A DNA stretch of 64,000 nucleotides from Hyphomicrobiales bacterium (lineage in GTDB: Bacteria > Pseudomonadota > Alphaproteobacteria > Rhizobiales > Rhizobiaceae). Under the pieces are notes generated by a model that saw nothing but the letters and a program-made list of their open reading frames with translations, did no database searches and had not been told where the DNA came from. Position 1 is the first letter of the stretch, and the number at the start of each line of letters is the position of its first letter. Of this stretch, positions 35,595 to 57,617 are shown piece after piece. The DNA is taken from contig UCNE01000014.1 in NCBI GenBank assembly GCA_900473685.1, positions 124,001 through 188,000 of the forward strand, in the 5' to 3' direction. Position numbers and translations under genes: made by a program.

Positions 35595-35612
35595 GATTAC
35601 GATCGGGCGCAG

Positions 35613-42754: not shown

Positions 42755-43615
42755 TTACCCTTCTGACCAGCGGAATGACGGCAGGATGAAGTCGGGTGTG
42801 GCGCCATGCCCGACAAACAGCGCCTGGCGCTCCGCATCCGAGGCGGTTTCCAGAATGCCCGTCGTCACCAGGATCGACTTCAATCCGGCACCCGCAGCGC
42901 CAGCGATGTCGTGTTCGATACTATCGCCAATGCAGCAGATCCTTTCCGGCGCAGTAGACCCCAGGAAGTCCCGCGCAGCCGCGTAGATATCCGGGAACGG
43001 CTTGCCGATCCAGCGCACCGTACCTCCCAGCTCTTCGTAAAGCTCAGCGATCCGCCCTGCCCCGAAGGCCGTGCCATTCTTGGTCAGCATGATCTTGTCC
43101 GGGTTGGTGCAAAGGCAAGGAATCCCACGCCGTGCCGCCGGCGCCAGCAATGCCTCGTAGAACGGCAGCGGATACACATCACCTTCGCTTGCGGCCAAAA
43201 GAATGAAATCCGCCTCCTCGCCGCGTTCGGTGCGGACGAGATCAAGCCCGTCCAGCGGCGAAGTATCGCCGTCGCGGCTGATCAGCAGGCATGTGCGAGG
43301 AACCGCGCTGCTCACCTGCCTGATCTCGGACTGAAGAATGCGCCAGGCAACTTCCCCGGAAGTCAAGAACCAGTCCCAGCTCTGTGAATCGAAACCCAGC
43401 GCAGCGAGGCGGCGATCGTTCTCCGCCGAACGTTTTCCCGAGTTGGATAGAATGATAATCATCTTGCCCGCCTGTTTCAGACGGACGAGTGTTTCGACAG
43501 CGCCAGGATAAGGCCCTGAGCCATCCCGCAGCACACCGAACTGATCAATCAGGAAGGCGTCGAAACGCTCTTCGATCTCATCCAGACCGGAAATTATCAG
43601 AGGCCTGTTCGTCAT
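42755..43615 (-). CDS. HAD-superfamily hydrolase, subfamily IIA
   Basis: Phosphatase-like protein of 286 residues. Motif I is FDAFLIDQFGVLRDG with the nucleophilic aspartate; the second position carries Phe instead of Asp, as in the TIGR01459 group. Motif II is IIILSNSGKR, the lysine lies in NPDKIMLTKNG, and motif IV is CIGDSIEHDIAGA. A type C2 cap occupies the middle. It overlaps the kinase gene by four bases (ATGA) and is the last gene of the polyol operon. Likely role: removal of phosphate from a pathway intermediate or a dead-end sugar phosphate (inference). Confidence 0.83.
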   Translation of the reverse strand: MTNRPLIISGLDEIEERFDAFLIDQFGVLRDGSGPYPGAVETLVRLKQAGKMIIILSNSGKRSAENDRRLAALGFDSQSWDWFLTSGEVAWRILQSEIRQVSSAVPRTCLLISRDGDTSPLDGLDLVRTERGEEADFILLAASEGDVYPLPFYEALLAPAARRGIPCLCTNPDKIMLTKNGTAFGAGRIAELYEELGGTVRWIGKPFPDIYAAARDFLGSTAPERICCIGDSIEHDIAGAAGAGLKSILVTTGILETASDAERQALFVGHGATPDFILPSFRWSEG

Positions 43616-44901
43616 AGGACACCCGCCGATTTCGCGCCGATGAGTGCAAGCCGTGCGGTCCCGGCAGCCGCCTCTTCCGAGGCCACGGCCAAGAAGGGAA
43701 CCGGCATCTTCCGCTTGCGGATCGCCGTCCAGACCGAATTCTTCGCCCCGCCGCCGACCGTGCGGATGGAGCACAGCGCCGGACTGCCAAGAGACACCAG
43801 CCGCTGATAGGCCAGCGCCTCGACACCCGCGATACCCTCGAAGATCGCTTTCAGGAACTCGGCATCGCTCTGTGGCCGTGGCTCCATTCGTGGCTTCATC
43901 GCCGGATCATTGACCGGAAAGCGCTCGCCATCCTTGATCAGCGGGTAATAGTCGAGCCCCGTGTCGGTTTGTGGATCGATCTTCGCCGAAAGAGCGACAA
44001 TTTCCTCATTGTCGAAATGGGCTGACAAAACCACGCCGCCGGTATTGGAGGCACCGCCTGCCAGCCACATATCGCCGATCCGGTGGCTGTAAAGACCATA
44101 TTCCGGCGCGAAAAGCGGACGGTCCGACAGCATTTTCACCGTCAGGGTCGTGCCGAGCGCCGACACAGCGTCGCCGGGTTGATCGGCTCCGGTTGCCAGA
44201 AACGAGGCGCAGCCATCCGTGGTGCCCGCAACGATCACCACGTCATCGGAGAGGCCGAAGGCATCGGCTGCGGCCTGCGAAATTCCGGAGACCGGCGCGC
44301 CTGCGGGCAAGACATCCGGCAACAGGTCCAGCCGCACGCCCGTGGCAGCGATCCAGTCAGGCCATTGGCGTGCGACGGGATCGTAGCCGGTCTTCAAGGC
44401 ATTGTTCTCATCGGACACATCGTAGAGGCCGGTGAAATGACCGGCCAGCCAATCGGCCTGATGGATGATGCGAAAGATGCCCGGGATGGACTGAAACGTC
44501 AGCGCCTTGGCCAAGCCCGATGTTGCCCCGTGTGCGGCGCTTTCCTTGGGCGCGTGGGCTGCGATACGGCCGAGGGTATCCGCATCCCCGACGGGATCAT
44601 TATACATCATCGGCACCGCCAGCGGCGTACCGTCCGCGCTGGCAGGCAGCATCGTGCCGGATGTGCCATCGATCGCAATCGCCCGAACCTGTGTCCGGTC
44701 GATGCCGTCCAGAACCTGTCCCAGCGCCGTCTGCACCGCTTTCCACCAAACCACGGGATCACGGTGATCGGCGGAAAAATCGGCAAGTTTGGAGGATCCT
44801 GAAGCGGCGATCTCAAAACCAGCATCCATGGCCACGGCACGCGCACCGGATGTACCGATGTCGATGCCGATCACCAGCGGACTGCCCGAGGCAAAACTCA
44901 T
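43612..44901 (-). CDS. FGGY-family carbohydrate kinase (ribulokinase/xylulokinase-like)
   Basis: Sugar kinase of 429 residues. The N-terminal phosphate-1 motif is VIGIDIGTSGARAVAMD, followed by IAIDGTSGTMLP; the C-terminal half has ASFLATGA, WLAGGASNTGGVVL and the adenosine motif TVGGGAKNSVW. It is shorter than glycerol kinase or EryA-type kinases (about 500-520) and similar in size to D-ribulose kinases. GGAAAGG lies upstream of the ATG and the gene overlaps the aldolase gene by four bases. It is the second FGGY kinase of the operon. Confidence 0.87.
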   Translation of the reverse strand: MSFASGSPLVIGIDIGTSGARAVAMDAGFEIAASGSSKLADFSADHRDPVVWWKAVQTALGQVLDGIDRTQVRAIAIDGTSGTMLPASADGTPLAVPMMYNDPVGDADTLGRIAAHAPKESAAHGATSGLAKALTFQSIPGIFRIIHQADWLAGHFTGLYDVSDENNALKTGYDPVARQWPDWIAATGVRLDLLPDVLPAGAPVSGISQAAADAFGLSDDVVIVAGTTDGCASFLATGADQPGDAVSALGTTLTVKMLSDRPLFAPEYGLYSHRIGDMWLAGGASNTGGVVLSAHFDNEEIVALSAKIDPQTDTGLDYYPLIKDGERFPVNDPAMKPRMEPRPQSDAEFLKAIFEGIAGVEALAYQRLVSLGSPALCSIRTVGGGAKNSVWTAIRKRKMPVPFLAVASEEAAAGTARLALIGAKSAGVL

Positions 44902-45953
44902 TGCAATGCCTTTCCGGCCCTGTTCAATTCCTGCCGGTATTTTTCCGCGTCCCAGCCAAGCAGTTCGGCATTTTCCGCGTCCGTCAGATAGCACAAACGG
45001 GCACCTTCATTGATCCGGCCAAGCACATCGGACAGGCAGCGCGCCAAGGCAAGAGCCCCTGCCGTGATTTCCTTGGAAACGAGCACGCCCTTGCCCGGAA
45101 ACAACAGCGTTGGCGGCAATGACGCCCCTTCCGCGCGATATTGGTCTTCGATCGAAGCGGCCGTATCCCCAGGGGCTGCGACAAACGAACCCCGCCCGAG
45201 AAAGATCACATGATCCGGATAGAGACTGCCGCCGGCCGCGATACGGCAACTCGTGAGATCGGTGGCCACATCATGGATCGTGCCGTCTTCCGGCAGAATG
45301 AAACCGCTGCCGACAGCAAGCCGCGATAGGGCTGTAAGATCAGCATCCGGCGCTTGACGGCGTGGCAGGGCCAGCCTCTGCGAAACCTCGGCCAGCAGAG
45401 CTTCTGCCTCCGCCACGGTTTCGCCAGCCACCGCAACACCATGATTGCCAAGGATGAGCACGCTGGTATCCGGCCGGATCCGCGCCGCGATCGCCTTGGC
45501 GAGCGGCAGGCCCGGTCGCGCATAGGGCACGAACACATGCGGAATGCCGGCGAGTCTCGATGCGGCAATGGTTTCGCCGTTAACCTGCACGGCGGTCGCG
45601 ATGGTTTCGACGCAGTGGACGTGGATCACCACCTTTTGCGGCATCAGGGCGTGCACCGTCGTTTCGATCGATGGCCGCAAGCCGGATGGATTGCGGTCCG
45701 CGATGACGAAATCCTGCGCTTTCTCGGTCGAAGGATCGTCACGTTCCAGCGCATCAAGCAATGCGTCGAGCGCCACCGGCACCATCACGTCGCGCTGCCT
45801 TGCCTGCATCAGCCAGAGGCCGGACGCCTTGATCCACAGCGTGCCGCCTTCCTTGATCGAGGTATTGCCACCCGCCGCCTGCACCAGCGCCGGATCGGCA
45901 CCGACCCGGGCGGAAACATCCAATAGGGCTTCGAATTCAGAACTTCTCACCAT
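44898..45953 (-). CDS. Class II aldolase/adducin-family protein (long form)
   Basis: Enzyme of 351 residues whose N-terminal 220 residues form the zinc-dependent aldolase fold. The metal ligands are seen in VIHVHCVETIATAV and LGNHGVAVAGE, and AAGGNTSIKEGG is the phosphate-binding loop. About 130 extra C-terminal residues set it apart from the 218-residue paralogue two genes upstream. Members cleave sugar 1-phosphates or act as epimerases or decarboxylases. It lies 15 bases after the GlpD-like gene and overlaps the kinase gene that follows. Confidence 0.83.
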   Translation of the reverse strand: MVRSSEFEALLDVSARVGADPALVQAAGGNTSIKEGGTLWIKASGLWLMQARQRDVMVPVALDALLDALERDDPSTEKAQDFVIADRNPSGLRPSIETTVHALMPQKVVIHVHCVETIATAVQVNGETIAASRLAGIPHVFVPYARPGLPLAKAIAARIRPDTSVLILGNHGVAVAGETVAEAEALLAEVSQRLALPRRQAPDADLTALSRLAVGSGFILPEDGTIHDVATDLTSCRIAAGGSLYPDHVIFLGRGSFVAAPGDTAASIEDQYRAEGASLPPTLLFPGKGVLVSKEITAGALALARCLSDVLGRINEGARLCYLTDAENAELLGWDAEKYRQELNRAGKALQ

Positions 45954-45968
45954 TGTCTCCGATATATC

Positions 45969-47483
45969 TCAAGCCGCCTGCGACTGCCGCAGACACCAGG
46001 CTGCAAAAGCCTCGCGCTCGGCTGATGTCATGTGCAATCCGTGTTTTGTGCGGCGCTCCAGAATATCTTGCGGCGTCTGCGCCCATTCGGTCTCGATCAG
46101 GAACCGCGCCTCGCGTTCGCGCAGCAGCTTGCCGAAAGATGCACCGAGATCGTCGAGCGATGATGCACCGCCGAGCAGATCATGGGCGCGGGTGCCGTAA
46201 AGTCTCGCATAATGTTTGGCGAGATCAACCGGCAGCCAGCGGTATTTGGCCCGGAGATCGCCGAGGAACTGCTCGAAATCCGCCTTTGGCATATCGCCGC
46301 CGGGCAAGATGCCTTTCGAGGTCCAACCCGGTTTCATCGACGGGAAGAACGGCCTGATCTTCTCCAGCGCATGTTCAGACAATTTGCGGAACGTGGTGAT
46401 CTTGCCGCCGAACACGGAAAGCAGTGGCGCCTTGCCATTCACCGCATCGACCTCGAAAATATAGTCCCGCGTCACTGCAGACGGATTTTCGGCATTGTCA
46501 TCATAGAGCGGCCGCACACCGGAGAAGCTGTGGACGATATCGCTCTCGGACAGCTGTTGCTTGAAATAACGGTTCACCGACTTGATCAGATAGGAGATCT
46601 CGTTGGCATCGGCTTTCACATCTTCCGGCCGCCCGTCATAGGGAATATCGGTCGTGCCGATCAGGGCCAGATCGTTTTCGTAGGGGTTGATGAAGATCAC
46701 CCGCTTGTCAGGGTTCTGGACCAGATAGGCCTGCCGCCCCTCCCAGAATTTCGGCACGATGATATGGCTGCCCTTGACGAGCCGGACATTGCGGCGGGAG
46801 TTCAGCCCGGCCACCCGGCCGATGACGTCGTTGACCCAGGGACCGGCCGTATTGACGACGCACCGCGCCTTGAGTTCGCTCTTGCGTCCCGTACCGGCCT
46901 CGGTCATCTCGATATCCCACAGATCACCACTGCGGCGCACCGACGTGCAGGCGGTCCGTGTGTATATCCGTGCGCCCCGCTGCTTGGCGTCGAGCGCATT
47001 GAGCAGCACCAGGCGGGCATCATCGACCCAGCAATCGGAATATTCGAACGCCTTGCGATAATCCGTCTTGACCGGCGCGCCCTCAGGCGCGGTGCGTAGG
47101 TCCAGCGTCCGCGTGCCGGGCAACCGCTTGCGGCCACCGAGATGATCGTAGAGAAACAGGCCGAGGCGAACGAGCCATGCAGGGCGATCGGACGAACTGT
47201 GCGGCAGAACGAACCGCATCGGCCAGATGATGTGCGGCGCGGATTGAAGCAGCACCTCGCGCTCGATCAGCGCCTCGCGCACCAACCGGAACTCGTAATA
47301 TTCGAGATAACGCAAGCCCCCGTGCACAAGCTTGCCGGATCGCGAACTGGTCCCCTCAGCCAGATCGTCCTTCTCGCAAAGAACAACCGACATGCCGCGC
47401 CCGGCCGCATCGCGGGCAATGCCCGCACCATTGACGCCGCCGCCAATGATGAACAGGTCGATTATGCCGGATTCAGCGCTCAC
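45969..47483 (-). CDS. GlpD-type FAD-dependent polyol-phosphate dehydrogenase
   Basis: Membrane-associated flavoprotein of 504 residues, the size of aerobic glycerol-3-phosphate dehydrogenase and of EryB. The FAD motif IIGGGVNGAGIARDA is at residues 9-23, followed by SSRSGKLVHGGLRYLEYYEF, the DAO/GlpD signature. LIGTTDIPYDG and FGGKITTFRKLSEHAL are also conserved. The GTG start has AGGAG eight bases upstream and overlaps the aldolase stop. In this operon it probably oxidises a polyol phosphate made by the upstream kinase and passes electrons to ubiquinone. Glycerol 3-phosphate itself is an alternative substrate. Confidence 0.88.
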   Translation of the reverse strand: MSAESGIIDLFIIGGGVNGAGIARDAAGRGMSVVLCEKDDLAEGTSSRSGKLVHGGLRYLEYYEFRLVREALIEREVLLQSAPHIIWPMRFVLPHSSSDRPAWLVRLGLFLYDHLGGRKRLPGTRTLDLRTAPEGAPVKTDYRKAFEYSDCWVDDARLVLLNALDAKQRGARIYTRTACTSVRRSGDLWDIEMTEAGTGRKSELKARCVVNTAGPWVNDVIGRVAGLNSRRNVRLVKGSHIIVPKFWEGRQAYLVQNPDKRVIFINPYENDLALIGTTDIPYDGRPEDVKADANEISYLIKSVNRYFKQQLSESDIVHSFSGVRPLYDDNAENPSAVTRDYIFEVDAVNGKAPLLSVFGGKITTFRKLSEHALEKIRPFFPSMKPGWTSKGILPGGDMPKADFEQFLGDLRAKYRWLPVDLAKHYARLYGTRAHDLLGGASSLDDLGASFGKLLREREARFLIETEWAQTPQDILERRTKHGLHMTSAEREAFAAWCLRQSQAA

Positions 47484-48136
47484 GCTCGTTTCTCCTGCAA
47501 TCCGTAACTCGCAAATCCCTTCCGCACGCCTGCAATCTCTTCTGCAGGCAGAACGACGGGGCCACCGATCAGCAGCGCGTGATAATATTGCTTGGCGATC
47601 GTCTCGAGCTCCACCGCTGCCCACATCGCCTTTTCGAGGCTCGCTCCGGTGGCAAGCATTCCGTGATTGGCCATCAGGCAGGCGGTGCGGCCTTCCATCG
47701 CCTTGAGGATATTGTCCGAAAGCTCCTTGGTGCCGTAACGGGCATAGTCGCAAACCTTCACGTCGTCGCCACCAAAGGCGGCAATCATGTAGTGACAGGC
47801 CGGGATCGGCTTGTGGGCGATGGCAAGGATGGTCGAATAGATCGCATGCGTATGGATGACCGCATGAACCTCCGGCCGGCTCCTCATGATATCCAGATGA
47901 AAGCGCCATTCCGTCGAGGGTTTGCGCGGGCCATTCCAGGCGCCGTATTCACCCTCCAGCGGCAACGAGGCGATCATGTCCGGCGTCATCTCGTCATAGG
48001 GCGCTGCCGACGGGGTGATCAGCATCCGGTCTTCGTAGCGCGCGCTGATATTGCCGGATGTGCCCTGGTTGATGCCAAGCGCATTCATCTTGCGGCAATG
48101 ATCGATGATCGACTGGCGGACGTAATTCTCCGTCAT
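47480..48136 (-). CDS. Class II aldolase (L-fuculose-1-phosphate aldolase-like)
   Basis: Zinc-dependent aldolase of 218 residues, the length of FucA. The phosphate-binding loop is NQGTSGNISAR, the metal-binding pair is AVIHTHAIYST, the third histidine is in LMANHGMLATG, and the catalytic glutamate is plausibly in STEWRFHLDIM. It would cleave a ketose 1-phosphate to dihydroxyacetone phosphate and a short aldehyde. It follows the 2-hydroxyacid dehydrogenase gene by ten bases and is coupled to the GlpD-like gene. Confidence 0.87.
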   Translation of the reverse strand: MTENYVRQSIIDHCRKMNALGINQGTSGNISARYEDRMLITPSAAPYDEMTPDMIASLPLEGEYGAWNGPRKPSTEWRFHLDIMRSRPEVHAVIHTHAIYSTILAIAHKPIPACHYMIAAFGGDDVKVCDYARYGTKELSDNILKAMEGRTACLMANHGMLATGASLEKAMWAAVELETIAKQYYHALLIGGPVVLPAEEIAGVRKGFASYGLQEKRA

Positions 48137-48146
48137 CGTCCTGCCC

Positions 48147-49184
48147 TCAGCACGGATTGACCGGCGGCAGGCCGGCAATATAGCGGCGCACCTCTTCGGC
48201 TGCCATCTCTGCGGCATAGGTGACGGTGCGCACCGAAGCCCCGGCAATATGCGGCGTCAGCGTCACGTTTGGCAGTTGCAAGAGTGGCCAGTCTTCCGGC
48301 ACCGGCTCGACGGCGAACGTTTCGAGCATCGCAGACCCGAGCGGGCCATTCACCAGGGCCTCGTATAATGCATCATAATCGCAAAGCGGCCCGCGCGCCG
48401 TATTCACGAAGATCGCGCCCGGCTTCATCTTCGCAAAGCTTTCGGCATTCATCATATGCCGTGTCTCTTCCGACACCCGCGAATGCAGCGTCACGACATC
48501 GGAGCGTGACAACAGATCGTCGAAACTGACATGTTCGACACCCGCGTTGCGGTCATCGGCGGACAGCTGGACATAGGGATCGTAGACTACAACCTTGGTT
48601 CCAAAGGCGCGCAGCAGCCGCACCACCTTGGTGCCGATATTGCCGTAGCCAACCACACCGACCGTCATTTCGGACAGTTCCCGGCCGGTCTTGTCGGCGC
48701 GGTAAAGCTCGCCGCGCCATTCACCCTTGCGCAGGGATTCGTGACCGGAGCGGATCAGCCGGGTTTCCGCAAGGATGGCGCCCAGCGTGAATTCGGCAAC
48801 AGCGCTGGCGTTGCGGCCGGGCGTGTTGACGACCAGCACACCGGCATCACGCGCCGCCTGCATATCAACATTGACCGGTCCACCGCGCGAAACGGCAACG
48901 AATTTCAGGTCCGGCAGGCGCGAAAACATGCCGCGCGAAAACGGCGCCAGCTGGGTGATGACCATCTCGGCATCACCGACGAATTCGATGATATCATTGG
49001 CCTTGCCCATGTATTCCTTCAGGCCATCCATGCCCTCGACGGCATAGCCATGCTCCATCGGCTCATCCGGCCAGGGCTGCTCGAGGAGACGGATATCATG
49101 GCCGTCGCCACAGGCTTCCACGACCTTGTCGCGAAAGACCGTCGGCAGCATGAACCGGTCTCCGATGATGGCGATTTTCTTCAT
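48147..49184 (-). CDS. D-isomer-specific 2-hydroxyacid dehydrogenase family protein
   Basis: NAD(P)-dependent dehydrogenase of 345 residues, related to phosphoglycerate and erythronate-4-phosphate dehydrogenases. The Rossmann motif is VGVVGYGNIGTKVVRLL. The active-site Arg, Glu and His are in VNTARGPLCDYD, LETFAVEPVPEDW and LTPHIAGAS. Before the cofactor domain, residues 1-150 form the substrate domain (LKFVAVSRGGPVNVD). AGGAAG lies eight bases before the ATG. It lies between the EryA-like kinase and the FucA-like aldolase, so a phosphorylated aldonate or an aldehyde-derived hydroxyacid are reasonable substrates. Confidence 0.87.
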   Translation of the reverse strand: MKKIAIIGDRFMLPTVFRDKVVEACGDGHDIRLLEQPWPDEPMEHGYAVEGMDGLKEYMGKANDIIEFVGDAEMVITQLAPFSRGMFSRLPDLKFVAVSRGGPVNVDMQAARDAGVLVVNTPGRNASAVAEFTLGAILAETRLIRSGHESLRKGEWRGELYRADKTGRELSEMTVGVVGYGNIGTKVVRLLRAFGTKVVVYDPYVQLSADDRNAGVEHVSFDDLLSRSDVVTLHSRVSEETRHMMNAESFAKMKPGAIFVNTARGPLCDYDALYEALVNGPLGSAMLETFAVEPVPEDWPLLQLPNVTLTPHIAGASVRTVTYAAEMAAEEVRRYIAGLPPVNPC

Positions 49185-49194
49185 TTCAGTCTTC

Positions 49195-50757
49195 CTATTC
49201 AGATGCCGGGGCTGTGCCGTGGGACAGGGCATGCCAGACCGGACGAAGGGACAGGCGCGATTGCCTGTAGAGTGGAAACGCCGCGTTAAAACGCGCCGCC
49301 ATGGCTTTATCGGCCGGTTCCGCCGGCCGCTGGTAGGGGGTGACCCATTCCTTGACGCAATCTTCCATCGAGCCGTAGATGCCCAGCGAAACGGCGGCAA
49401 TCATCGCCGTGCCAGCGGCCCCCGCTTCCTCGCGCTCACTGGTCTGCACCGGGCAACCGAGCGCGCCGCCGAGAATGCGCCGTAGCGACGCGCTGCGCGC
49501 CGCGCCGCCGGTCAGCCGCACCCGCGACGGCAGCGGCCCCATCTCGACATAACAATCGCGCGACGCCATCGCCAGACCGTTGAAGACAGCACGAACCATG
49601 TCGGCAAAGCCGTGGTTCAGATCGAGCCCGATGAAAGATGCCCGCGCCGAGGCATCGACAAACGGACCGCGCTCGCCTGCTTCTGAAATATAAGGGTGGA
49701 ACAGCAGCGAGGTTTCCTTGGATTCCGACAGCCAGCCTTCGACATGACCGAGCAGCTCGGACTTGCTTTTCTCGATGCCCATGCCCTTCAAAACACTACC
49801 GGCCAGCGAGAGTATCCAGTCGATATTCAGCGTCGCCGCCATATTCGACTGCATTTGCGCATAATGGCCTGCAATCGGCAGACACATCGTGTAGCCGGTG
49901 AGGTCCTTGTTGAGCTGCACTTCGTCAGGGCTTTTCGCTAGCCGCATATGCATGCCGGTCGAGCCGATGATCGAGCAGCCGGTATCGGTGCCCGGCTCAT
50001 AGAGGCCAGCACCAAGCGAGGTGCAGACGACATCGACATAGCCGAGCACTACCGGTGTTCCCGCCAGAAGCCCTGTCAGCGCTGCTGCCTTGTCATCAAG
50101 CGCATGCTGCGTCACCGCGCCATCAACGATTTCCGGCAGCAGGTAGCGCTGTTTGCGCAGATCGAGAAAGTCGATGACATCCTCGGAATATTGCCGGGTG
50201 CGGAAATTCCCAAAGGTGAAATTGGCTTCGGACGGATCGGTCGCCCGCTTTCCGGTCAGCTTGAAATAGAGCCAGTCCTTGCAGTGAAATCCTGTTGTCG
50301 CGCCGTCGATCATCTCGGGCGCATTGTCCAGAATCCACCGAAGCTGCGAACCCATCTGGCAGGCAGCAAGACCCGATCCGGTATGCGAAAAGCGGGCGGC
50401 ATCGCCGCTGTCCTGCCGCAGCCGCTCTACCGTGTCACCAGCACGGGCATCGAGCCATAGCCAGCCCTTGCCGACGGGCTCGCCTTGTCTGTCGATCAGC
50501 CAGGTACCATCGCCTTGACCGGTTACCGAGATCGCCGCCACCCGGCTGGCGAGGTTTTCCACCTTGCCTGCGAGATCGGCAAGCGTCTTTGCGGTATCCG
50601 CCCAGGTCCGGTCGAGATCCTGGACGACACCCCGGCCGCCCTCGCTTTCATAGCTGTTGGCGATGGCGCAAGCCGCGATCTGCTTGCCGCCAAGATCGAA
50701 AGCGACCGACTTGATGACGGAGGTTCCCGCATCGATCCCGATCAGGATATCGCGCAT
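49195..50757 (-). CDS. FGGY-family kinase resembling erythritol kinase EryA
   Basis: Polyol kinase of 520 residues. The start MRDILIGIDAGTSVIKSVAF and the stretches AISVTGQGDGTWLID and ATDPSEANFTFGNFRTRQY are what I remember of EryA from Brucella and rhizobia, and the length matches. The adenosine motif is VRLTGGAARSASLRRILGG. It would phosphorylate a C4-C5 polyol or ketose entering through the adjacent importer. The start overlaps the last base of the upstream ATPase gene. Autoinducer-2 kinase LsrK is a similar-sized relative and is the main alternative. Confidence 0.84.
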   Translation of the reverse strand: MRDILIGIDAGTSVIKSVAFDLGGKQIAACAIANSYESEGGRGVVQDLDRTWADTAKTLADLAGKVENLASRVAAISVTGQGDGTWLIDRQGEPVGKGWLWLDARAGDTVERLRQDSGDAARFSHTGSGLAACQMGSQLRWILDNAPEMIDGATTGFHCKDWLYFKLTGKRATDPSEANFTFGNFRTRQYSEDVIDFLDLRKQRYLLPEIVDGAVTQHALDDKAAALTGLLAGTPVVLGYVDVVCTSLGAGLYEPGTDTGCSIIGSTGMHMRLAKSPDEVQLNKDLTGYTMCLPIAGHYAQMQSNMAATLNIDWILSLAGSVLKGMGIEKSKSELLGHVEGWLSESKETSLLFHPYISEAGERGPFVDASARASFIGLDLNHGFADMVRAVFNGLAMASRDCYVEMGPLPSRVRLTGGAARSASLRRILGGALGCPVQTSEREEAGAAGTAMIAAVSLGIYGSMEDCVKEWVTPYQRPAEPADKAMAARFNAAFPLYRQSRLSLRPVWHALSHGTAPASE

Positions 50758-51881
50758 CAGGCAAGCTCCTGCCCATGGCTGATGGCCCGGCCGCTCTCGC
50801 CGTCGAAGACATGCAGGCTCGAAGGATCAAGGCGGATGCCGACATTCTCGCCGATCGCAAGGTTCGTCCGGTCATGCTCGACCAGCACCATCGTGCCACC
50901 GGCAAAATCAGTGGCTATATGGGTCTGGTCGCCGAGCCACTGGTTGACCGCCACCTTGGCGCCGACGCCGCCTTCGCTGCGGCGAACCGCATAGGGCCGG
51001 ATGCCGAGCACGACCTTGCTGCGCTTCATCAGTTCGGCCCGCACTTCATGGGAAAAGTCAGACGCCCTGTAATCGAGCTTCACGCCTTCGTTGAGACCGA
51101 AGGACACTGTATCGCCGGAACCGGAAATCCCCGCAGAAAATACGTTCATCGGCGGCTCGCCGACAAAGGTGCCGGTAAACAGGTTGGCGGGCCGCTCCTT
51201 GATCATCTGTGGCGTATCGAACTGTTGCAGCACCCCGCCCTCCATAACGGCGATCCGGTCCGCCAGCGCATTGGCTTCCGTCTGGTCGTGGGTGACGAGA
51301 ATGGCCGTCAGCCCGCGTTCCTTGATGAAATGCTTGATACGGCCACGCAGAAGCGCGCGCAACTGCGGCTCCAGCTGCCCCATCGGCTCATCGAGCAGGT
51401 GCAGGTCGGCATCGCGGATCAGCGCCCGGCCGAGCGAGGCACGCTGCTGCTGGCCGCCCGAGATCGAGCTTGGATACCGGCCCATGATGTCCTCGATCTC
51501 CAGCAGCTTGGCGATGCTGGCGACCTTCTCTTCAACGACGCTCTGGGAGAGTTTCGAGGCCTTCAGCGCAAAGGCAATGTTCTCGCGCACGGTCAAAGGC
51601 GGATAGAGCGAATAGCCTTCGAACGCCATCGCGACATTGCGCTTGACCGGCGCAAAGGTCTGAACCTCCCTGCCCTTCAGCGAAATCGTGCCGCGCGATA
51701 CGGCTTCGAAGCCCGCGACCATGCGCAGGGTCGAGGTCTTGCCGCAGCCGGACGAGCCGAGAAGCGCGATGATTTCGCCCTTCTTCACATCCATGCTGAG
51801 CTGCTTGACAGCATGGACGCCATGATCGATCGGGCCATAGAACTTGTCGACGCCCTTGATGAACAGCGCTGTCTCGCTCAT
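50757..51881 (-). CDS. ABC transporter ATP-binding protein with altered Q-loop
   Basis: UgpC/MalK-class ATPase of 374 residues with a C-terminal TOBE domain. Walker A GSSGCGKTS, signature SISGGQQQR, Walker B LHLLDEP with the catalytic glutamate, and the switch histidine VTHDQTEA are intact. The Q-loop reads MAFEGYSLYP, with Glu where Gln normally stands. It is encoded next to a second, differently altered ATPase, an arrangement I recall from the glycerol importer GlpST of Rhizobium leguminosarum. The two probably assemble as an asymmetric heterodimer. It overlaps its partner gene by four bases. Confidence 0.88.
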   Translation of the reverse strand: MSETALFIKGVDKFYGPIDHGVHAVKQLSMDVKKGEIIALLGSSGCGKTSTLRMVAGFEAVSRGTISLKGREVQTFAPVKRNVAMAFEGYSLYPPLTVRENIAFALKASKLSQSVVEEKVASIAKLLEIEDIMGRYPSSISGGQQQRASLGRALIRDADLHLLDEPMGQLEPQLRALLRGRIKHFIKERGLTAILVTHDQTEANALADRIAVMEGGVLQQFDTPQMIKERPANLFTGTFVGEPPMNVFSAGISGSGDTVSFGLNEGVKLDYRASDFSHEVRAELMKRSKVVLGIRPYAVRRSEGGVGAKVAVNQWLGDQTHIATDFAGGTMVLVEHDRTNLAIGENVGIRLDPSSLHVFDGESGRAISHGQELA

Positions 51882-52996
51882 GCCGCTTCTCCATTGCGTG
51901 TCATCGGGGTGGCGGCGGACCGGATCAAGCCGCCACTGTCCTTGTCGAACAGGAAGGCCGCAGTGCCATTGACGGCGATATGCGCCGGGCCGGACACCGG
52001 CCCCGGCGTTCCCGCCGGACGCGACACCAGAATTTCCCGGCCACGCGCCGTCAGAACCAGCGTTACCGTCTTTTCGTTGAGCGGCGTTTCGGCTTCGACC
52101 GTCACCGGAATGGCACCCGGAGCACTGGCATCGGTAAAGGCGATTGTCTCGGGCCTGAGACCGATGACGCAGGTCTTGCCGACAACGCCAGACGGCATGC
52201 CGGGCAGCGCCACCTTCACATTCGAAAGCTCGACATGGACACCTTCGGGTCCGGCTTTCGGCGTCACATCCAGAAGATTGATGGTCGGATCTCCAAACAG
52301 GCGGGCAATCTCGATATCGGCCGGTGTGTTGTAGATATCTTCCGGCGTGCCGATCTGACGGATGCGGCCCTGCGACATCACCGCGATCCGGTCGCCAAGC
52401 GCCATGGCTTCCTTGTAGTCCTGCGTCACATAGACGACCGTTGCGCCTTGTGCGGCGAGCAGGCGCGGTAATTCAAGCCGCATTTCGAAGCGCAACTTGG
52501 CATCGACATTGCGCAGGGGATCATCGAGCAAAAGCAGCGGCGGCGAACCTGCCAGCGCGCGGGCGAGGGCCGTACGTTGTTTCTGGCCGTTCGAAAGCGC
52601 CTTTGGATGATGCGAAAGGACATGGTCGATCTTCAAAAGCTTGGCGACCTTGTGCACACCGGCCGAGATCGCATCCTTCGTTGCACTCGTCGCCGTCAGC
52701 GGGCTGGCAATGTTGTCGAAGGCGCTCATATGCGGGAACAGGGCAAAATTCTGGAACGCCATGCCGATGCCGCGATGCTCGGCGTCGATATCCGCGACAT
52801 CCTCGCCGCCGATCAGAATCTGGCCTTCATCGGGGTCGATCACACCAGCGACCAGCCGGAGCAGCACCGTCTTGCCTGCCCCGGAGGGACCAAACAGAAC
52901 CAGCGTTTCGCCGTCGGCCACATCCAGCGACAGGTTGTCGAGGACTGTGTTGGTCTTGTAGCGCTTGACGATGTTTTTAAGCCGAAGTGTCGTCAT
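51878..52996 (-). CDS. ABC transporter ATP-binding protein with degenerate catalytic site
   Basis: UgpC/MalK-class ATPase of 372 residues. Walker A GPSGAGKTV and the Q-loop MAFQNFALFP are normal. Three changes stand out: the signature is ALSNGQKQR (Asn for Gly), Walker B ends LLLLDDP (Asp for the catalytic Glu) and the switch motif is YVTQDYKEAM (Gln for His). Nucleotide binding is likely but hydrolysis may be weak or absent. The C-terminal half is a TOBE-type regulatory domain. It lies between the permease genes and the partner ATPase. Confidence 0.88.
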   Translation of the reverse strand: MTTLRLKNIVKRYKTNTVLDNLSLDVADGETLVLFGPSGAGKTVLLRLVAGVIDPDEGQILIGGEDVADIDAEHRGIGMAFQNFALFPHMSAFDNIASPLTATSATKDAISAGVHKVAKLLKIDHVLSHHPKALSNGQKQRTALARALAGSPPLLLLDDPLRNVDAKLRFEMRLELPRLLAAQGATVVYVTQDYKEAMALGDRIAVMSQGRIRQIGTPEDIYNTPADIEIARLFGDPTINLLDVTPKAGPEGVHVELSNVKVALPGMPSGVVGKTCVIGLRPETIAFTDASAPGAIPVTVEAETPLNEKTVTLVLTARGREILVSRPAGTPGPVSGPAHIAVNGTAAFLFDKDSGGLIRSAATPMTRNGEAA

Positions 52997-52999
52997 GAT

Positions 53000-53857
53000 T
53001 TATCCCTTCACCGCGCCAAGCGACAGGCCTTCGACGAGGTAGCGCTGGGCGTAGAGTGCAAGTGCAAGCGTCGGCGTCACGGACAGCACGATGGCCGAGG
53101 CGATCTGTCCGTACTGGATGCCGGACGAGGTGACGAAGGCAAGCGCCCCGACAGTCACCGGCTGCTTGTCAGCCGAGGCCAGCACCAGCGCGAAGACAAA
53201 ATTGTTCCAGGCGAAGATGAAGGCGAGCAGACCGGCGGCGGCGATGCCCGGCCCGGCCAGCGGCAGGGCGATCTTGCGGAAGGTCGCAAACCACGAATGC
53301 CCGGCAATGCGATAGGCGTATTCGACGTCGGCCGAGATATCCTCGAAATAGCCGCGCACGATCCACAGGATCAGCGGCAGGCAGATCAGCTGGTAGACCC
53401 AGATCAGCCCGAAATAGGTGTCCGATAGCCCAAGCCATTGGAAATACTGAGTGAGCGGCAGGAGAACGAGCAGCGGCGGTGCGAACCGGAAGGACAAAAG
53501 CGTGAAGGCGATATCTTCCGAACCCTTGAACTTGTGGCGGGCAAAGGCATAGGCGGCCGGCACGCCAAGGACGAGCGCCAGGGCAACCGAGGTCACCGAG
53601 AGGAAAATCGAGTTGCCAAGATTGCGCATGAAGGCGATGTCGAGCGTACCCGCCGCCGTCGTCAGCTTGCCGGTGATCAGCGCCGCATAGTTCGACAGCG
53701 TCGGCGTGAAGATCACCGATGGCGGGATCGCCAGGATCGTCTCGTTCGTCTGGAACGACATCAGAAAGATCCAGAAGATCGGGAACATGAAGAAGATGAC
53801 GACCAGCGTGAGGGCGATCAGCCGCAGGGTCTTTTCGAGCGTGGACGTGGTTTCCAT
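53000..53857 (-). CDS. Carbohydrate/polyol ABC transporter permease (MalG type)
   Basis: Inner-membrane permease of 285 residues with six hydrophobic segments, the first LIALTLVVIFFMFPIFWIFL. The coupling loop is seen in VEYAYRIAGHSWFATFRKIA followed by LPLAGPG. The protein ends LSLGAVKG, as do many MalG-like subunits. GAGGGG lies seven bases before the chosen ATG; an in-frame start eight codons earlier overlaps the previous gene. It is three bases ahead of the degenerate ATPase gene. Confidence 0.9.
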   Translation of the reverse strand: METTSTLEKTLRLIALTLVVIFFMFPIFWIFLMSFQTNETILAIPPSVIFTPTLSNYAALITGKLTTAAGTLDIAFMRNLGNSIFLSVTSVALALVLGVPAAYAFARHKFKGSEDIAFTLLSFRFAPPLLVLLPLTQYFQWLGLSDTYFGLIWVYQLICLPLILWIVRGYFEDISADVEYAYRIAGHSWFATFRKIALPLAGPGIAAAGLLAFIFAWNNFVFALVLASADKQPVTVGALAFVTSSGIQYGQIASAIVLSVTPTLALALYAQRYLVEGLSLGAVKG

Positions 53858-53867
53858 GGTTTTCCCC

Positions 53868-54791
53868 TCACGCCTCGCCACGGGCGCGTTCGCGCAGCCG
53901 CAGCCAGTTCTTGATGAAGATATTGGAGAGCAGGTAGGTGATCGCCCAGAGGATGACCATTAGCGCCGCGGAGCGTCCGACATTGGTCGACTGGAAGAAG
54001 TTGAGATAGGCTTCCACCTGGAAAACGGTCAGCGTATTGCCCGGCCCCCCTTGCGTCATCGCGTAGATGATATCGAACTGCTGGATACTATCGAGCAGCC
54101 GGAACAATGTGGCCGTCAGGATATAGGGCGTCAGCATCGGTAGCGTGATGCGGAAGAACACGAAGGTCCTTGGCACGCCGTCCAGCGCCGCCGCCTCAAA
54201 TGGCTGGGTCGGCAGCGAGCGCAGACCAGCGAGCAAAAGGATCATGATGAAGGGCGTATAGACCCAGATATCGACGAGAACGACGGTCAGCAGTGCCGTG
54301 CTCGGCGACGAGGCCCAGCGGAAATCATGCAGGCCGATCAGGCTGGCGAGGTAGCTCAGAATACCGAAGCTCGGGTTGGTCATCAGCTTCCACATCAGCG
54401 CAGCAAGCGCCGGCGCGATCATCAGTGGCAGAAGCAGCATGATCGAGATGAAATTATTGACCGTCGAGCGGCGCTGCAGGAGAAGCGCAATACCGAGGCC
54501 AAGCAGCAACTCCAGCGTCACCGTGATGCCAGCATAGAGCAGCGACACTTTCAGCGTGTTCCAGAAGGCCGGATCGGTGAAAAAGTTGAGATAGTTTTCA
54601 CCCCAGTTGAACTGCCGCGCCCAGGGCTGGCTCAAGCGGTAGCGCTGGAAGGAATAGATCACGGCGGTGAAAAACGGGATCAGGATGCCGATGCACACAA
54701 GCAGCGCCGGCAGGCTCAGCACATAAGGCAGCATCCTGCGGCTAATGCGAAAACCTGAAGCCGGTTTGCGGAGGGTTGCTGTTGAAGCCAT
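53868..54791 (-). CDS. Carbohydrate/polyol ABC transporter permease (MalF type)
   Basis: Inner-membrane permease of 307 residues. Hydrophobic segments include YVLSLPALLVCIGILIPFFT near residue 25 and ISIMLLLPLMIAPALAALMW. The coupling loop is FEAAALDGVPRTFVFFRI with LPMLTPYI. It is the first gene after the binding-protein gene, separated from it by a 153-base gap that holds a strong hairpin, and it pairs with the MalG-type subunit that follows ten bases later. Confidence 0.9.
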   Translation of the reverse strand: MASTATLRKPASGFRISRRMLPYVLSLPALLVCIGILIPFFTAVIYSFQRYRLSQPWARQFNWGENYLNFFTDPAFWNTLKVSLLYAGITVTLELLLGLGIALLLQRRSTVNNFISIMLLLPLMIAPALAALMWKLMTNPSFGILSYLASLIGLHDFRWASSPSTALLTVVLVDIWVYTPFIMILLLAGLRSLPTQPFEAAALDGVPRTFVFFRITLPMLTPYILTATLFRLLDSIQQFDIIYAMTQGGPGNTLTVFQVEAYLNFFQSTNVGRSAALMVILWAITYLLSNIFIKNWLRLRERARGEA

Positions 54792-54901
54792 GTCGAGCTC
54801 CGTTCTTTGTCTTTGAAGAAAGCGCGCGGCACGCGGGTGATCCGCGCCAGTCCATCGGCATTTCAGGTTGTCTCGAGACGGCGTTCAGCCGGTGTGCGGT
54901 T

Positions 54902-54927
54902 GCCCGGCGCTCTTTCAAGCGCCGGGC
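54902..54927 (-). other. Intercistronic RNA hairpin after the binding-protein gene
   Basis: Perfect 10-bp stem GCCCGGCGCT/AGCGCCGGGC with a six-base loop, 17 bases downstream of the binding-protein stop codon on the leftward transcript. No U-run follows. Such stems commonly protect the binding-protein message, giving more of it than of the permeases. Confidence 0.6.
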
Positions 54928-54944
54928 TCTGCTTGGGAGGCAGA

Positions 54945-56381
54945 TCAGCCGAGACCGGCTTCCTTCAGCTGGCGATCGATGCTCTCGACCAGCTGGTCGA
55001 GACCTTCGTCGACAGGCACTTCCTTGGCGACCATCTTCTGCAATGTCGCCGCCCATTCGGTGGTGACGTCGAAGAACAATGGCTGCGGGGTGAACTTGAT
55101 CGAGGCACCGGCAGCGGATGCGTCGAACATGTCAACATAGCCCGGGTACTTGTCGAGCTTGGTGCGGAAGGCTTCGTCCTTCCAGACCGACTGGCGGACC
55201 GGATCGACGAAATCCATCTTGGTGGCGCCGAAGATCGCATGCTCCGGACCGGTGGCCCATTGCAGGAAGTACCAGGTGGCGTCCTTGTCCTTGGAAAAGT
55301 TGGACATGGCGAGCGACCAGATCCAGATGTTCGGCGTCGAAGCCGTCGCATCCGGGTTGGCGGTGAAGGCGGCGTAGGACAGCTGCCCAGCCATCTTGTT
55401 ATCGCCGCCGTTCATGAAGTAGCCCAGGCAATCGGCGTCGAAGATCATCGCCGAAGCACCGGCACCAAGATCGGTACCGACCTGATACCAGGTGTAGGTC
55501 GACCAATCCTTCGGGCCGCTTTCCTGGATCATCTGCACCCATTTGGCGTGGAAGGCCTTGGAGCCTGCCGTGCCCATCGCCGCCGACAGCTTGCCGTCGG
55601 TGACGTTCAGGTCCTTTTCGTTGAAGTTCGAATAGGCCGACAGGAAGCCCGGATGGATCGTCGCCCAGGAGCGCGAGCCACGCACGCCGATACCGTAGAT
55701 ACCGCCGACATCCTTCTGCAGCTTGGCAGCCACGGAGATCATGTCATCGAGGTTCTTCGGAACGGCAACGCCGGCCTTGTCGAACATCGCCTTGTTATAG
55801 GTGATGTTGTTCTGCTCGAACGCCCACGGAATGCACCACTGCTTCGCGTCGTCAGAACCGAGCGCGCCACCCGGCTGGCCGTTCCAGGCGCAGGAATTCT
55901 TCACGCCCGGCAGGAAGTCGTCCCAGGCATAGTTCGGATTGGTTTTTTCTGGATCGTTGATCCACTCCTTGAGGTCGGTGATCCAGCCAGCCGGACCATA
56001 GGTCCAGGTCATATAGGCGCCGGTCATGAACGCATCATATTCGGTGGAGCCGGACGACAGCGCGGCCGTCACCTTGTCGAAATAGACGTCTTCCGGGAAC
56101 ACGTCATACTTGACGTCGATGCCTGTCAGATCCTTGAACGACTGCAGGTTGGCGATCATCGCATCGGCATAGGGGTGCTTGTTCAAAAGCAGCTTTACGG
56201 TCTTGCCGGAATGTTTCTTCCAGTCGAAATCGGCAGCCATTGCCCTGGTGGACATCATGTTGAGCAGCGTACCCGCCGCACCGGCCGTAACGCCCATGGC
56301 GCCGAGGCCCTTCAGCATTCCGCGGCGGTCCACCTCTCCCCGCAGGAATGCACTGATCAGGTCTTTCTCTTTCTCATGCAT
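54945..56381 (-). CDS. Carbohydrate/polyol ABC transporter substrate-binding protein
   Basis: Extracellular solute-binding protein of 478 residues. The N-terminus has a twin-arginine-like signal: DRRGMLKGLGAMGVTAG, hydrophobic stretch, then STRAMAADFDW, so Tat export is plausible. The mature part has KHSGKTVKLLLNKHPYADAM and later YDAFMTGAYMTWTYGPAGWI. It is the first structural gene of the leftward polyol operon, 193 bases after the SorC regulator gene. With a two-ATPase importer, it recalls GlpV-type glycerol-binding proteins, but the ligand is unknown. Confidence 0.88.
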   Translation of the reverse strand: MHEKEKDLISAFLRGEVDRRGMLKGLGAMGVTAGAAGTLLNMMSTRAMAADFDWKKHSGKTVKLLLNKHPYADAMIANLQSFKDLTGIDVKYDVFPEDVYFDKVTAALSSGSTEYDAFMTGAYMTWTYGPAGWITDLKEWINDPEKTNPNYAWDDFLPGVKNSCAWNGQPGGALGSDDAKQWCIPWAFEQNNITYNKAMFDKAGVAVPKNLDDMISVAAKLQKDVGGIYGIGVRGSRSWATIHPGFLSAYSNFNEKDLNVTDGKLSAAMGTAGSKAFHAKWVQMIQESGPKDWSTYTWYQVGTDLGAGASAMIFDADCLGYFMNGGDNKMAGQLSYAAFTANPDATASTPNIWIWSLAMSNFSKDKDATWYFLQWATGPEHAIFGATKMDFVDPVRQSVWKDEAFRTKLDKYPGYVDMFDASAAGASIKFTPQPLFFDVTTEWAATLQKMVAKEVPVDEGLDQLVESIDRQLKEAGLG

Positions 56382-56411
56382 TGGTCTTCTCCTCCTTCAC
56401 GGGCAAAACAT

Positions 56412-56427
56412 GCTCAATCCATTGAGC
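56412..56427. promoter_or_regulatory. Inverted repeat upstream of the binding-protein gene
   Basis: Perfect 7-2-7 inverted repeat GCTCAATCCATTGAGC, ending 31 bases upstream of the binding-protein start. Beside it is a second repeat, TACCGG (56430-56435) and CCGGTA (56445-56450). Either could be an operator for the SorC regulator or a hairpin in the leader; no copy of the first was seen upstream of the regulator gene. Confidence 0.45.
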
Positions 56428-56574
56428 CGTACCGGCTTACCCGACCGGTATGTCCTCCAGACCGCAGCACGCATCTCGCGGTCAGGCGGGATGCTGTTGC
56501 TGCGCAAGGCTTGAACCGAACCACTCCCCGGTCCGGTCTTCAGCCGTCACTCCCTATGCCGGGACAGCGCCATC

Positions 56575-57540
56575 TCAGGCGGCATCCTCCATCAATGTCT
56601 GCGCCGTCTTCTCGTCGGTGATCAGGCCGCTGAGGAACCGGCTTTCCAGCACGGCACGAATGGCGCGCGCCTTGACCTTGCCGCCGGCAACAGCGACCGT
56701 GCGGCGGTTTTTCAGAGCCTCGCGGCTGAGCGTAAACGTGCGGTTGGACAGCGACGTCTCGATCGGCTGGCCCTTGTCGTCAAAGAAATGGCCGAGCAAT
56801 TCTCCGGCTCCGCCGGCATTCTTGATATCCTCAAGTTCGGCCTTCTCGATCATCCCGGTCGCCACCAGCGACGCTTCGCGCTCGACGGTGCCGATCCCGA
56901 CAAGCAGCAGATCGGCGCTGCTGGCGAGATCAAAAATTTCCCGCACACCGCGCTGGTTGAACAGCACGTCGCGATCCTCGACCGAATTGGCAAAGAACGG
57001 CACCGGCATCACATAGGCTTCGGCACCGGTCCGCTCGGCCAGCCGGTGGATAACGTCATGCGGATTGGCGGAAAACCGCCGCGTCAGGCCGCCGAGCAGC
57101 GACACGAACTGGACATCCTTGTTGACCGTGCGCGGCAGATATTCGACGCACGCAGCCAGCGTGCGGCCGTGGCCCATGCCGATCAGCAGGGACCCTTCCT
57201 TCTCGATTTCGCGCTTCAAGAATTGCGCCCCGGAAATGCCGAGCGCCTTCAAAGGCAGGTCTTCCGGATCGAAGTCTGGAACCACCTCGCAATAGTCGAG
57301 GCCATAACGCGCCGACAGCTTCTGCTCCAGCTCGACGCATTCGGAGACTTCGCCGTCGATATAGACCTTCACCAGACCTTCCTGGTTGGCCTTGGTGATC
57401 AGACGATGGGCCTTCAGCGAAGTCAGGCCGAGACGCTTGGCGACTTCGGATTGGGTCAAGCCACCGGCATAGTGCAGCCAGGCCGCACGCGTTGCCATGC
57501 TCGACTCCTCGTCCCGAATTGACCCTCCGCCCAGAACCAT
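56575..57540 (-). CDS. SorC/DeoR-family transcriptional regulator (EryD-like)
   Basis: Sugar-responsive regulator of about 321 residues. The N-terminal helix-turn-helix is at about residues 25-55 (GLTQSEVAKRLGLTSLKAHR) and the rest is the SorC sugar-phosphate-binding domain, with LLIGMGHGRTLAACVEYLP, SLLGGLTRRF and LLLVGIGTVERE. The ATG following GGAGTGGAGAG is chosen over one ten codons earlier. Lying upstream of an EryA-like kinase operon, it matches the place of EryD, the erythritol repressor. A phosphorylated pathway intermediate is the expected inducer. Confidence 0.88.
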   Translation of the reverse strand: MVLGGGSIRDEESSMATRAAWLHYAGGLTQSEVAKRLGLTSLKAHRLITKANQEGLVKVYIDGEVSECVELEQKLSARYGLDYCEVVPDFDPEDLPLKALGISGAQFLKREIEKEGSLLIGMGHGRTLAACVEYLPRTVNKDVQFVSLLGGLTRRFSANPHDVIHRLAERTGAEAYVMPVPFFANSVEDRDVLFNQRGVREIFDLASSADLLLVGIGTVEREASLVATGMIEKAELEDIKNAGGAGELLGHFFDDKGQPIETSLSNRTFTLSREALKNRRTVAVAGGKVKARAIRAVLESRFLSGLITDEKTAQTLMEDAA

Positions 57541-57564
57541 CTCTCCACTCCGCTCTGCTATTTT

Positions 57565-57617
57565 TTTCACATCATGATATTTTTATCTGCTGTGAAAGAA
57601 TTTTCACGGCATGAAAA
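57565..57617. promoter_or_regulatory. Repeated TTTCAC-N2-CATGA sites upstream of the SorC gene
   Basis: Two direct repeats, TTTCACATCATGATAT (57565-57580) and TTTCACGGCATGAAAA (57602-57617), start 37 bases apart just upstream of the SorC gene. The second is also half of the inverted repeat GTGAAA/TTTCAC at 57592-57607. The region is A/T-rich. They are good candidates for autoregulatory SorC-binding sites. Confidence 0.5.

Follow-up and report, generated by a model that had tools for sequence, protein, structure and literature searches.

A rhizobial operon of the Sinorhizobium meliloti erythritol, adonitol and L-arabitol type, and a proposed route for its pentitols

We analysed a 64,000-nucleotide stretch of DNA (the window), positions 124001–188000 of contig UCNE01000014.1 (C20) in the 5.5 Mb genome of a Hyphomicrobiales bacterium (GCA_900473685.1), and in it a polyol operon of 13 leftward genes in a single run from 57570 down to 42755 (Table 1), which is almost certainly a member of the erythritol/ribitol (adonitol)/L-arabitol locus known from Sinorhizobium meliloti. 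A first-pass annotation made from the sequence had reported one leftward run carrying a SorC regulator, a two-ATPase importer, two FGGY kinases, dehydrogenases, class II aldolases and a HAD phosphatase, and all of these are present; the family labels hold as named, and two can be made narrower, the GlpD-type dehydrogenase being EryB-like (70% identity) and the SorC regulator EryD-like (58%). The distances between genes, in operon order, are 193 bases after the SorC gene, 153 after the binding-protein gene, and then 10, 3, −4, −1, 10, 10, −4, 15, −4 and −4. The overlaps of four bases noted earlier thus number four in the refined coordinates (ATPase 1/ATPase 2, FucA/GlpD, aldolase/kinase 2 and kinase 2/HAD), and ATPase 2 and kinase 1 overlap by one base. 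From the first permease onward the spacing is at most 15 bases, and because no break separates the two halves of the operon, this layout makes a single transcript from the first permease on likely.

Table 1. Genes of the polyol operon in the window, in operon order (ABC, ATP-binding cassette; FAD, flavin adenine dinucleotide)
Feature	Position	Strand	Basis
EryD-like SorC-family regulator	56575..57570	-	58% to Pararhizobium EryD; PDB relatives LsrR, SorC
MptA-type solute-binding protein	54945..56381	-	weak match to sugar/polyol binders 4RYA, 5IAI; position and order as in Sinorhizobium loci
ABC permease 1 (Mpt)	53868..54791	-	synteny
ABC permease 2 (Mpt)	53000..53857	-	BPD_transp_1; synteny
ABC ATPase 1 (Mpt)	51878..52996	-	ABC_tran
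ABC ATPase 2 (Mpt)	50757..51881	-	ABC_tran, TOBE_2
EryA-like FGGY polyol kinase (kinase 1)	49195..50757	-	56% to EryA
RbtA, D-2-hydroxyacid dehydrogenase homologue	48147..49184	-	2-Hacid_dh; name by elimination from PMC3599248
FucA1-like class II aldolase	47480..48136	-	Aldolase_II; best PDB match L-fuculose phosphate aldolase 7X78, E 4e-58
EryB-like FAD polyol-phosphate dehydrogenase (GlpD-type)	45969..47483	-	70% to EryB
LalA, RhaD-like class II aldolase or epimerase with C-terminal extension	44898..45953	-	conserved signature; fold
RbtB, FGGY kinase (kinase 2), probable D-ribulose kinase	43612..44901	-	SePSK/AtXK-1 family, E 1e-93
RbtC, HAD-IIA phosphatase	42755..43615	-	TIGR01459, 251 bits against a cut-off of 104; PDB HAD-IIA phosphatases

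Homology and gene order together match the operon to 13 of the 17 genes in the S. meliloti-type locus, arranged as eryD-mptABCDE-eryA-rbtA-fucA1-eryB-lalA-rbtB-rbtC. Published cut-offs for homologues of EryA, EryB and EryD are 46, 65 and 44%, and the window proteins exceed all three, with 56, 70 and 58% to the Pararhizobium erythritol operon (L009) and 77, 82 and 82% to S. meliloti Ak57 (L007). Across 19 plasmid records of Sinorhizobium and Shinella the best match to kinase 1 has 75.6–77.2% identity, and LalA, RbtA, RbtB and RbtC reach 79, 85, 78 and 72% in S. meliloti 4H41 (L050). The transporter, consisting of a solute-binding protein, two permeases and two ATPases, has the order of the Sinorhizobium/Ensifer loci at 79–97% identity and is of the MptABCDE rather than the EryEFG type. 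Gene order is identical in S. meliloti 4H41 and S. medicae (L054), where 16 of the 17 genes lie within the stretch and the regulator past its edge, and in Ak57, where the regulator is included and eryC, a DeoR regulator, tpiB and rpiB follow; the binding-protein and HAD genes of Ak57 were missing from its gene table and were recovered by tblastn, each in two pieces. The loci closest to that of the window's genome are rhizobial, with LalA at 97% in a Rhizobiales isolate (L034). A search of genomes for the conserved order, as proposed in the first-pass annotation, found it again, with variations, in many named rhizobial genomes, and it is therefore not a product of chance.

The S. meliloti locus was described by Geddes et al. 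in 2013; reference 15 of that paper, through which several of the statements below were taken, is presumably Geddes and Oresnik 2012. According to the 2013 paper, the locus in S. meliloti and S. medicae comprises 17 genes, eryABCD, mptABCDE, lalA, rbtABC, fucA1, eryR, tpiB and rpiB (PMC3599248). As stated there via reference 15, mptABCDE and eryA of S. meliloti serve erythritol, adonitol and L-arabitol, lalA-rbtABC is involved in both pentitols and not in erythritol, and fucA is dispensable for all three (PMC3599248). The same paper notes that these polyols resemble one another over three carbons. The first-pass annotation knew of no described pathway with this gene set, and held that a published cluster of the same composition with a defined substrate would speak against its view; the S. 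meliloti locus is such a cluster, with erythritol, adonitol and L-arabitol as defined substrates (PMC3599248), and the operon is a further copy of it, not an undescribed set. The accompanying remark that class II aldolases are missing from the ery pathway holds for the Brucella/R. leguminosarum type, given without LalA in Table 2 of the same paper (PMC3599248), and not the S. meliloti type.

Unlike in the full S. meliloti locus, eryC-eryR-tpiB-rpiB do not lie beside the window operon; published group 3 loci likewise are described without these four beside them (PMC3599248). In the window's genome EryC is encoded in a separate ery operon (L030), whose EryC, EryB, EryA and EryD are 85–95% identical to those of L009, and TpiB and RpiB lie together on another contig (C28); a ribose-type transporter set (L031), separate from the window operon, is taken for EryEFG. 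The gene fucA1 was not found in the S. fredii USDA 205 locus (L104), and S. fredii NGR234 has been published without it (PMC3599248). A plain erythritol operon was ruled out, as the genome has a separate one and both the transporter and lalA-rbtABC differ, and so was a glycerol operon, the EryB-like protein sharing 70% identity with EryB and only 55% with its GlpD-like counterpart at the glycerol-type locus. Pathways for apiose, AI-2 and four-carbon acids were considered as well.

Names for the remaining genes come from a duplication pattern. The trio lalA-rbtB-rbtC has been called a suboperon, and M. loti carries two lalA genes, one in its polyol locus and the other at a different site next to rbtB and rbtC (PMC3599248). 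We surveyed the best 80 of at least 527 LalA relatives, thus the closest ones, and in 16 of these 80 the long aldolase belongs to an eryA locus that lacks both kinase 2 and the HAD gene; both LalA copies were seen in M. comanense (L096/L103), M. intechi (L094/L105) and one Mesorhizobium assembly (L097/L108). Because this duplication matches the published Mesorhizobium pattern, the long aldolase is named LalA, and kinase 2 and the HAD protein RbtB and RbtC; gene order is the basis for assuming that the two names fall in that sequence, and elimination leaves RbtA for the 2-hydroxyacid dehydrogenase. Altogether 64 of the 80 loci are polyol loci with eryA and/or rbtA, with EryB in 59, FucA in 28, RbtB plus RbtC in 47, neither of the latter in 16, and RbtB only in one that ends with its contig (L082). 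The remaining 16 loci all have RbtB and RbtC beside LalA. At E 1e-90 or better, a search seeded with RbtA found matches in 6 of the 385 genomes of the class and in 64 of the 394 of the family, counting the window's genome each time; among the 60 loci examined, which exclude the own genome and eight weaker family matches, 50 were Mpt-type by a contiguous same-strand rule, and EryB occurred in 46 and RbtB in 42 of these.

The lalA-rbtB-rbtC trio was also observed in other surroundings. In Aminobacter sp. SR38 (L012, 9820–12996) and in the genome of L150 (L192, 6735–9867) it forms part of an L-rhamnose cluster, where it immediately precedes RhaI. Thirteen Mesorhizobium loci among L098–L113 hold the second copy; in 12 of them it is divergent from genes for a ribose-type ABC importer, a DeoR regulator and a rhamnulokinase-like kinase, and the other (L108) is truncated by a contig end. 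The trio is carried as well, through transfer or mis-binning of contigs, by assemblies under the labels Prosthecobacter and Akkermansiaceae (L072 and L086, LalA 64% and 59%). In a 1.4 Mb single-contig alphaproteobacterial genome (L186), FucA-LalA-RbtB-RbtC occur with an SDR protein, a homologue of NAD (nicotinamide adenine dinucleotide)-dependent glycerol-3-phosphate dehydrogenase and RpiB, beside GlpD-like and GlpK genes.

Uptake, the use of EryA and the involvement of lalA-rbtABC are already published for S. meliloti. For the reactions themselves we lean, with modest confidence, towards one explanation as a whole, a Mpt/EryA/EryB route with phosphate relocation on the C5 branch by RbtC and RbtB and with cleavage or epimerisation by LalA and FucA; each single enzyme step proposed here for the pentitols is more tentative and could well prove wrong. 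In this scheme Mpt would import the polyols, EryA would phosphorylate one end, and EryB, and perhaps RbtA, would oxidise the neighbouring carbon to give a ketose 1-phosphate. When ribitol and L-arabitol are handled alike, they give D-ribulose 1-phosphate (3R,4R) and L-xylulose 1-phosphate (3R,4S), respectively, so that with D-erythrulose 1-phosphate all three products would be 3R. The C4 product would pass through EryC, TpiB and RpiB, encoded elsewhere in the genome, to erythrose 4-phosphate. On the C5 branch, RbtC would strip the phosphate from C1 and RbtB would re-phosphorylate D-ribulose at C5, yielding D-ribulose 5-phosphate by a C1-to-C5 relocation. By retro-aldol and aldol reactions LalA may interconvert L-xylulose 1-phosphate and D-ribulose 1-phosphate, or cleave its substrate to dihydroxyacetone phosphate (DHAP) and glycolaldehyde, and FucA1 could cleave D-ribulose 1-phosphate. 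EryC is a D-erythrulose-1-phosphate 3-epimerase (PMC10733421), and therefore the product of EryA and EryB should be D-erythrulose 1-phosphate in the 3R form; the names used for Brucella, L-erythritol 4-phosphate and L-3-tetrulose 4-phosphate (PMC11508834), are taken here to denote the same compounds with the carbons counted from the opposite end. A limited literature search found no enzymology of RbtA, LalA, RbtB or RbtC, which is no claim that none exists. Of the earlier outline, in which a polyol is phosphorylated, oxidised to a ketose phosphate and cleaved, the polyol, the phosphorylation and the oxidation stand, and cleavage is only possible.

In LalA, E97, H111, H113 and H171 are invariant among 49 aligned sequences (35–87% identical to the window's), and, as in FucA and RhaD, the three histidines are taken to bind the metal and E97 to be the catalytic acid. 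The class II aldolase signature is kept in both LalA and FucA1. The structure model of LalA (mean predicted local distance difference test score 92.8, predicted template modelling score 0.90) has the class II aldolase fold and matches 3M4R (Z 23.4, 191 residues, 2.5 Å), E. coli FucA (Z 17.2–18.2, 169–178 residues, 2.4–3.2 Å) and E. coli RhaD (Z 15.8–17.1, 180–182 residues, 2.5–2.9 Å); the listed matches barely cover LalA beyond about residue 200, and AraD is absent among the fold matches listed, which excludes nothing. In sequence LalA is nearest to bifunctional RhaD/SDR proteins, with 82 bits versus 24 for the one FucA-named model among the matches listed. E. coli FucA turns the D-arabinose-derived pentulose phosphate into glycolaldehyde and DHAP on the D-ribulose 1-phosphate route, and E. 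coli RhaD is listed for the L-xylulose 1-phosphate route (PMC6443609); both aldolases give 3R products (PMC10733421). By analogy, D-ribulose 1-phosphate would fit as the substrate of FucA1 and L-xylulose 1-phosphate as that of LalA. If rbtBC are needed on L-arabitol too, LalA would have to supply D-ribulose 1-phosphate, acting as a C4-epimerase by retro-aldol cleavage and re-addition. AraD epimerises by the same chemistry at the other end of a pentulose.

FucA1 itself occurs in two distinct versions among close relatives, 73–75% (L041, L042, L044, L045, L058) or 94–98% (L034, L035, L037, L039, L040, L043) identical to the window's. In the same loci RbtA and, where present, EryB next to FucA1 are at 88–99%, which looks like replacement of the FucA1 gene alone.

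RbtB is probably a D-ribulose kinase, judging from its best PDB relatives, SePSK and AtXK-1 (E 1e-93, nearly full length). Its residues D14, T17 and D229 are conserved at 98% or more in 88 sequences and correspond, by motif and not by alignment, to D8, T11 and D221 of SePSK. SePSK phosphorylates D-ribulose and AtXK-1 does so weakly, the physiological role of both being called unknown by the authors (PMC4880283). If the pentitol route depends on RbtB and RbtC, a polyol locus lacking rbtBC is expected only where these genes persist elsewhere in the genome. Fifteen genomes could be searched for the 16 LalA-seeded loci without rbtBC; all 15 have RbtB elsewhere (58–65%), and in all 15 RbtC lies within 40 bases of it. 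In the class search (E 1e-60) RbtB was found in 9 of 385 genomes, own genome included, and in all nine loci it adjoins LalA and RbtC homologues, down to 41% identity. One locus (L121) is without LalA and keeps FucA, RbtB and RbtC, as expected if LalA is specific to L-arabitol; L131 resembles it, its rbtB and rbtC mapping in two pieces each. The eight RbtA-seeded Mpt loci without RbtB in the run (L150, L151, L159, L160, L162, L166, L167, L168) are a mixed group: in L159 lalA, rbtB and rbtC are all on the other strand, L168 stops at a contig edge, the genome of L167 carries the trio elsewhere, and L150 was ruled out as a counter-case, its genome holding the trio in the L-rhamnose cluster.

Several observations weigh against phosphate relocation and the assignments that go with it. 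The 15 genomes are mostly Mesorhizobium, and the independent cases are thus fewer than 15. Genome G034 (99% complete) has a locus with FucA, EryB and LalA (L166) and no rbtB match in the class search, which was taken to cover the same 385 genomes as the RbtA search; beside LalA, at L166 5761–6039, lies a 99-residue RbtB-like stretch (38%) whose strand shows no reading frame open over 200 codons, and another contig encodes an RbtC-like protein (35%). It is possible that rbtB in G034 has been lost or has much diverged, the stretch perhaps being a decayed rbtB. L160 and L162 have RbtC with no RbtB found nearby, and in L151 neither was found nearby, no genome-wide rbtB search having been made for these three; L156–158 have RbtB and no mapped RbtC. 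The Z values of the LalA model do not show whether its stereochemistry is FucA-like or RhaD-like. RbtC could serve in clean-up; phosphoglycolate and pyridoxal-phosphate phosphatases belong to the same HAD-IIA family. We know of no precedent for a 2-hydroxyacid dehydrogenase acting on a polyol phosphate. Moreover, we presume that SMc01617 is rbtC. SMc01617 has been given EC 3.1.3.74 by sequence similarity (PMC3272708), which points weakly to another substrate.

The dehydrogenase step may be divided differently, with RbtA as an NAD-dependent pentitol-phosphate dehydrogenase and EryB acting on erythritol only; this is compatible with the relocation route, and we regard it as a real possibility, if not quite one to bet on. 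RbtA retains the Arg/Glu/His triad R264, E293 and H312 (at least 98% in 103 sequences) and, in the same set, the GxGxxG stretch of the NAD motif (G176/G179/G181/G184). It is present in all 63 LalA-seeded loci with an EryA-like kinase, and the Shinella locus has no enzymes other than the kinase, RbtA and FucA. Relatives at 61–74% occur in non-Mpt loci, of which L152, L154 and L164 also hold a SorC regulator and a FucA-like aldolase; of twelve more distant relatives four were examined (L170–L173, 47–51%), and all four adjoin an FGGY-like kinase, LsrK-like in L170, and a class II aldolase-like gene. Because kinase and aldolase neighbours recur, this distribution suggests that RbtA acts between the two as a polyol-phosphate dehydrogenase, although L155 and L163 have neither directly beside RbtA and the family normally requires a 2-hydroxy acid. 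Among six genomes with non-Mpt RbtA, the best EryB-like protein is at the GlpD level of 50–54% in G609, G663, G548, G661 and G626, but a sixth, G770, has a 66% EryB. Nearly every Mpt locus, or else its genome at another site, encodes EryB; the loss of eryB from some loci fails as proof of an RbtA dehydrogenase, since eryB is found elsewhere in the genome (68–71%; in Shinella on the same plasmid), save for one 85%-complete assembly with a Mpt locus and no eryB match at all. As a separate observation, L152–L154 combine RbtA (73–74%) with SorC, a bifunctional aldolase/SDR-like gene and a divergent ribose-type ABC importer, with FucA in L152 and L154 and with FGGY and PfkB kinases in L154, the sole locus of these so scanned by family; this cluster is possibly another sugar pathway.

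It is more doubtful, though a serious competitor to relocation, that LalA and FucA1 form the main route, taking both pentulose 1-phosphates to DHAP and glycolaldehyde, with RbtC and RbtB salvaging stray pentulose 1-phosphate. Both proteins keep the class II aldolase signature, E. coli FucA performs such a cleavage (PMC6443609), Shinella H4-D48 has only eryA-rbtA-fucA after the transporter, and G034 has FucA and LalA with no rbtB match; however, rbtB-rbtC are kept in all 15 searched genomes whose LalA-seeded locus lacks them.

That a second, unrelated sugar enters a new pathway through kinase 2, as the first-pass annotation proposed, is very improbable. Two FGGY kinases are indeed present, and lalA-rbtB-rbtC also stands away from eryA, as in the L-rhamnose clusters (L012, L192), but one described locus holds the whole gene set and the operon has no second transporter. 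Because kinase 2 is closest to SePSK/AtXK-1 and lies beside aldolase and phosphatase homologues in 9 of 9 class-search loci, it seems to act within the same route. Least probable of all is that the aldolases work synthetically, joining formaldehyde or glycolaldehyde to DHAP and feeding EryC-TpiB-RpiB (C4) or RbtC-RbtB (C5) towards the pentose phosphate pathway: E. coli FucA and RhaD do so with EryC in an engineered strain (PMC10733421), and FucA, LalA, EryC, TpiB and RpiB occur together in 9 of 63 LalA-seeded polyol loci and LalA with the three isomerases in 29 more (63 and not 64, as L095, cut at a contig end, fails the stricter rule), but with a transporter and a kinase present polyol breakdown is the straightforward interpretation, there is no obvious formaldehyde source among the 13 genes, the window's own genome encodes the isomerases away from the operon, and cleavage was the direction suggested for S. 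meliloti (PMC10733421).

Elsewhere in the window, on the same strand, two chemotaxis receptors and a CheA-like kinase lie at 33598–39926, ∼3 kb downstream of the operon, and a second importer at 15728–21634 comprises a MalK-type ATPase (40% to ATPase 1), two permeases and a binding protein together with a GMC oxidoreductase.

With the gene set described and its substrates defined, interest shifts to the reactions of RbtA, LalA, RbtB and RbtC, the four gene products tied to pentitol use. Relocation of a phosphate by a phosphatase and a kinase would, if true, be an unusual design for a catabolic route, and activity on a polyol phosphate would, as far as we know, be new to the 2-hydroxyacid dehydrogenase family to which RbtA belongs. 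The co-occurrence of aldolase and isomerase genes, singled out as worth studying because it may mark a natural ‘erythrulose monophosphate’ cycle (PMC10733421), is seen in part of the related loci and bears on whether the engineered formaldehyde-fixing cycle exists in nature.

Among known systems, the rhizobial glycerol (glp) operon has the GlpD family and MalK-type ATPases in common with the window operon, but the glp-type locus of this genome (L032) is separate and has its own importer, and its GlpD-like protein is the one at 55% to the window's EryB-like protein. The eryEFG-eryABCD operon of the R. leguminosarum/Brucella type shares relatives of EryA, EryB and EryD but has another transporter type and no lalA-rbtABC, and the window's genome holds one of these too (L030, L031). 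SePSK and AtXK-1 are cyanobacterial and plant proteins, whereas RbtB is a rhizobial operon member of the same sequence family. Closest is the S. meliloti locus: the window operon is without its adjoining eryC, eryR, tpiB and rpiB, with EryC, TpiB and RpiB encoded elsewhere in the genome, and has the other 13 of the 17 genes in common with it, in the order and on the strand seen in Sinorhizobium loci.

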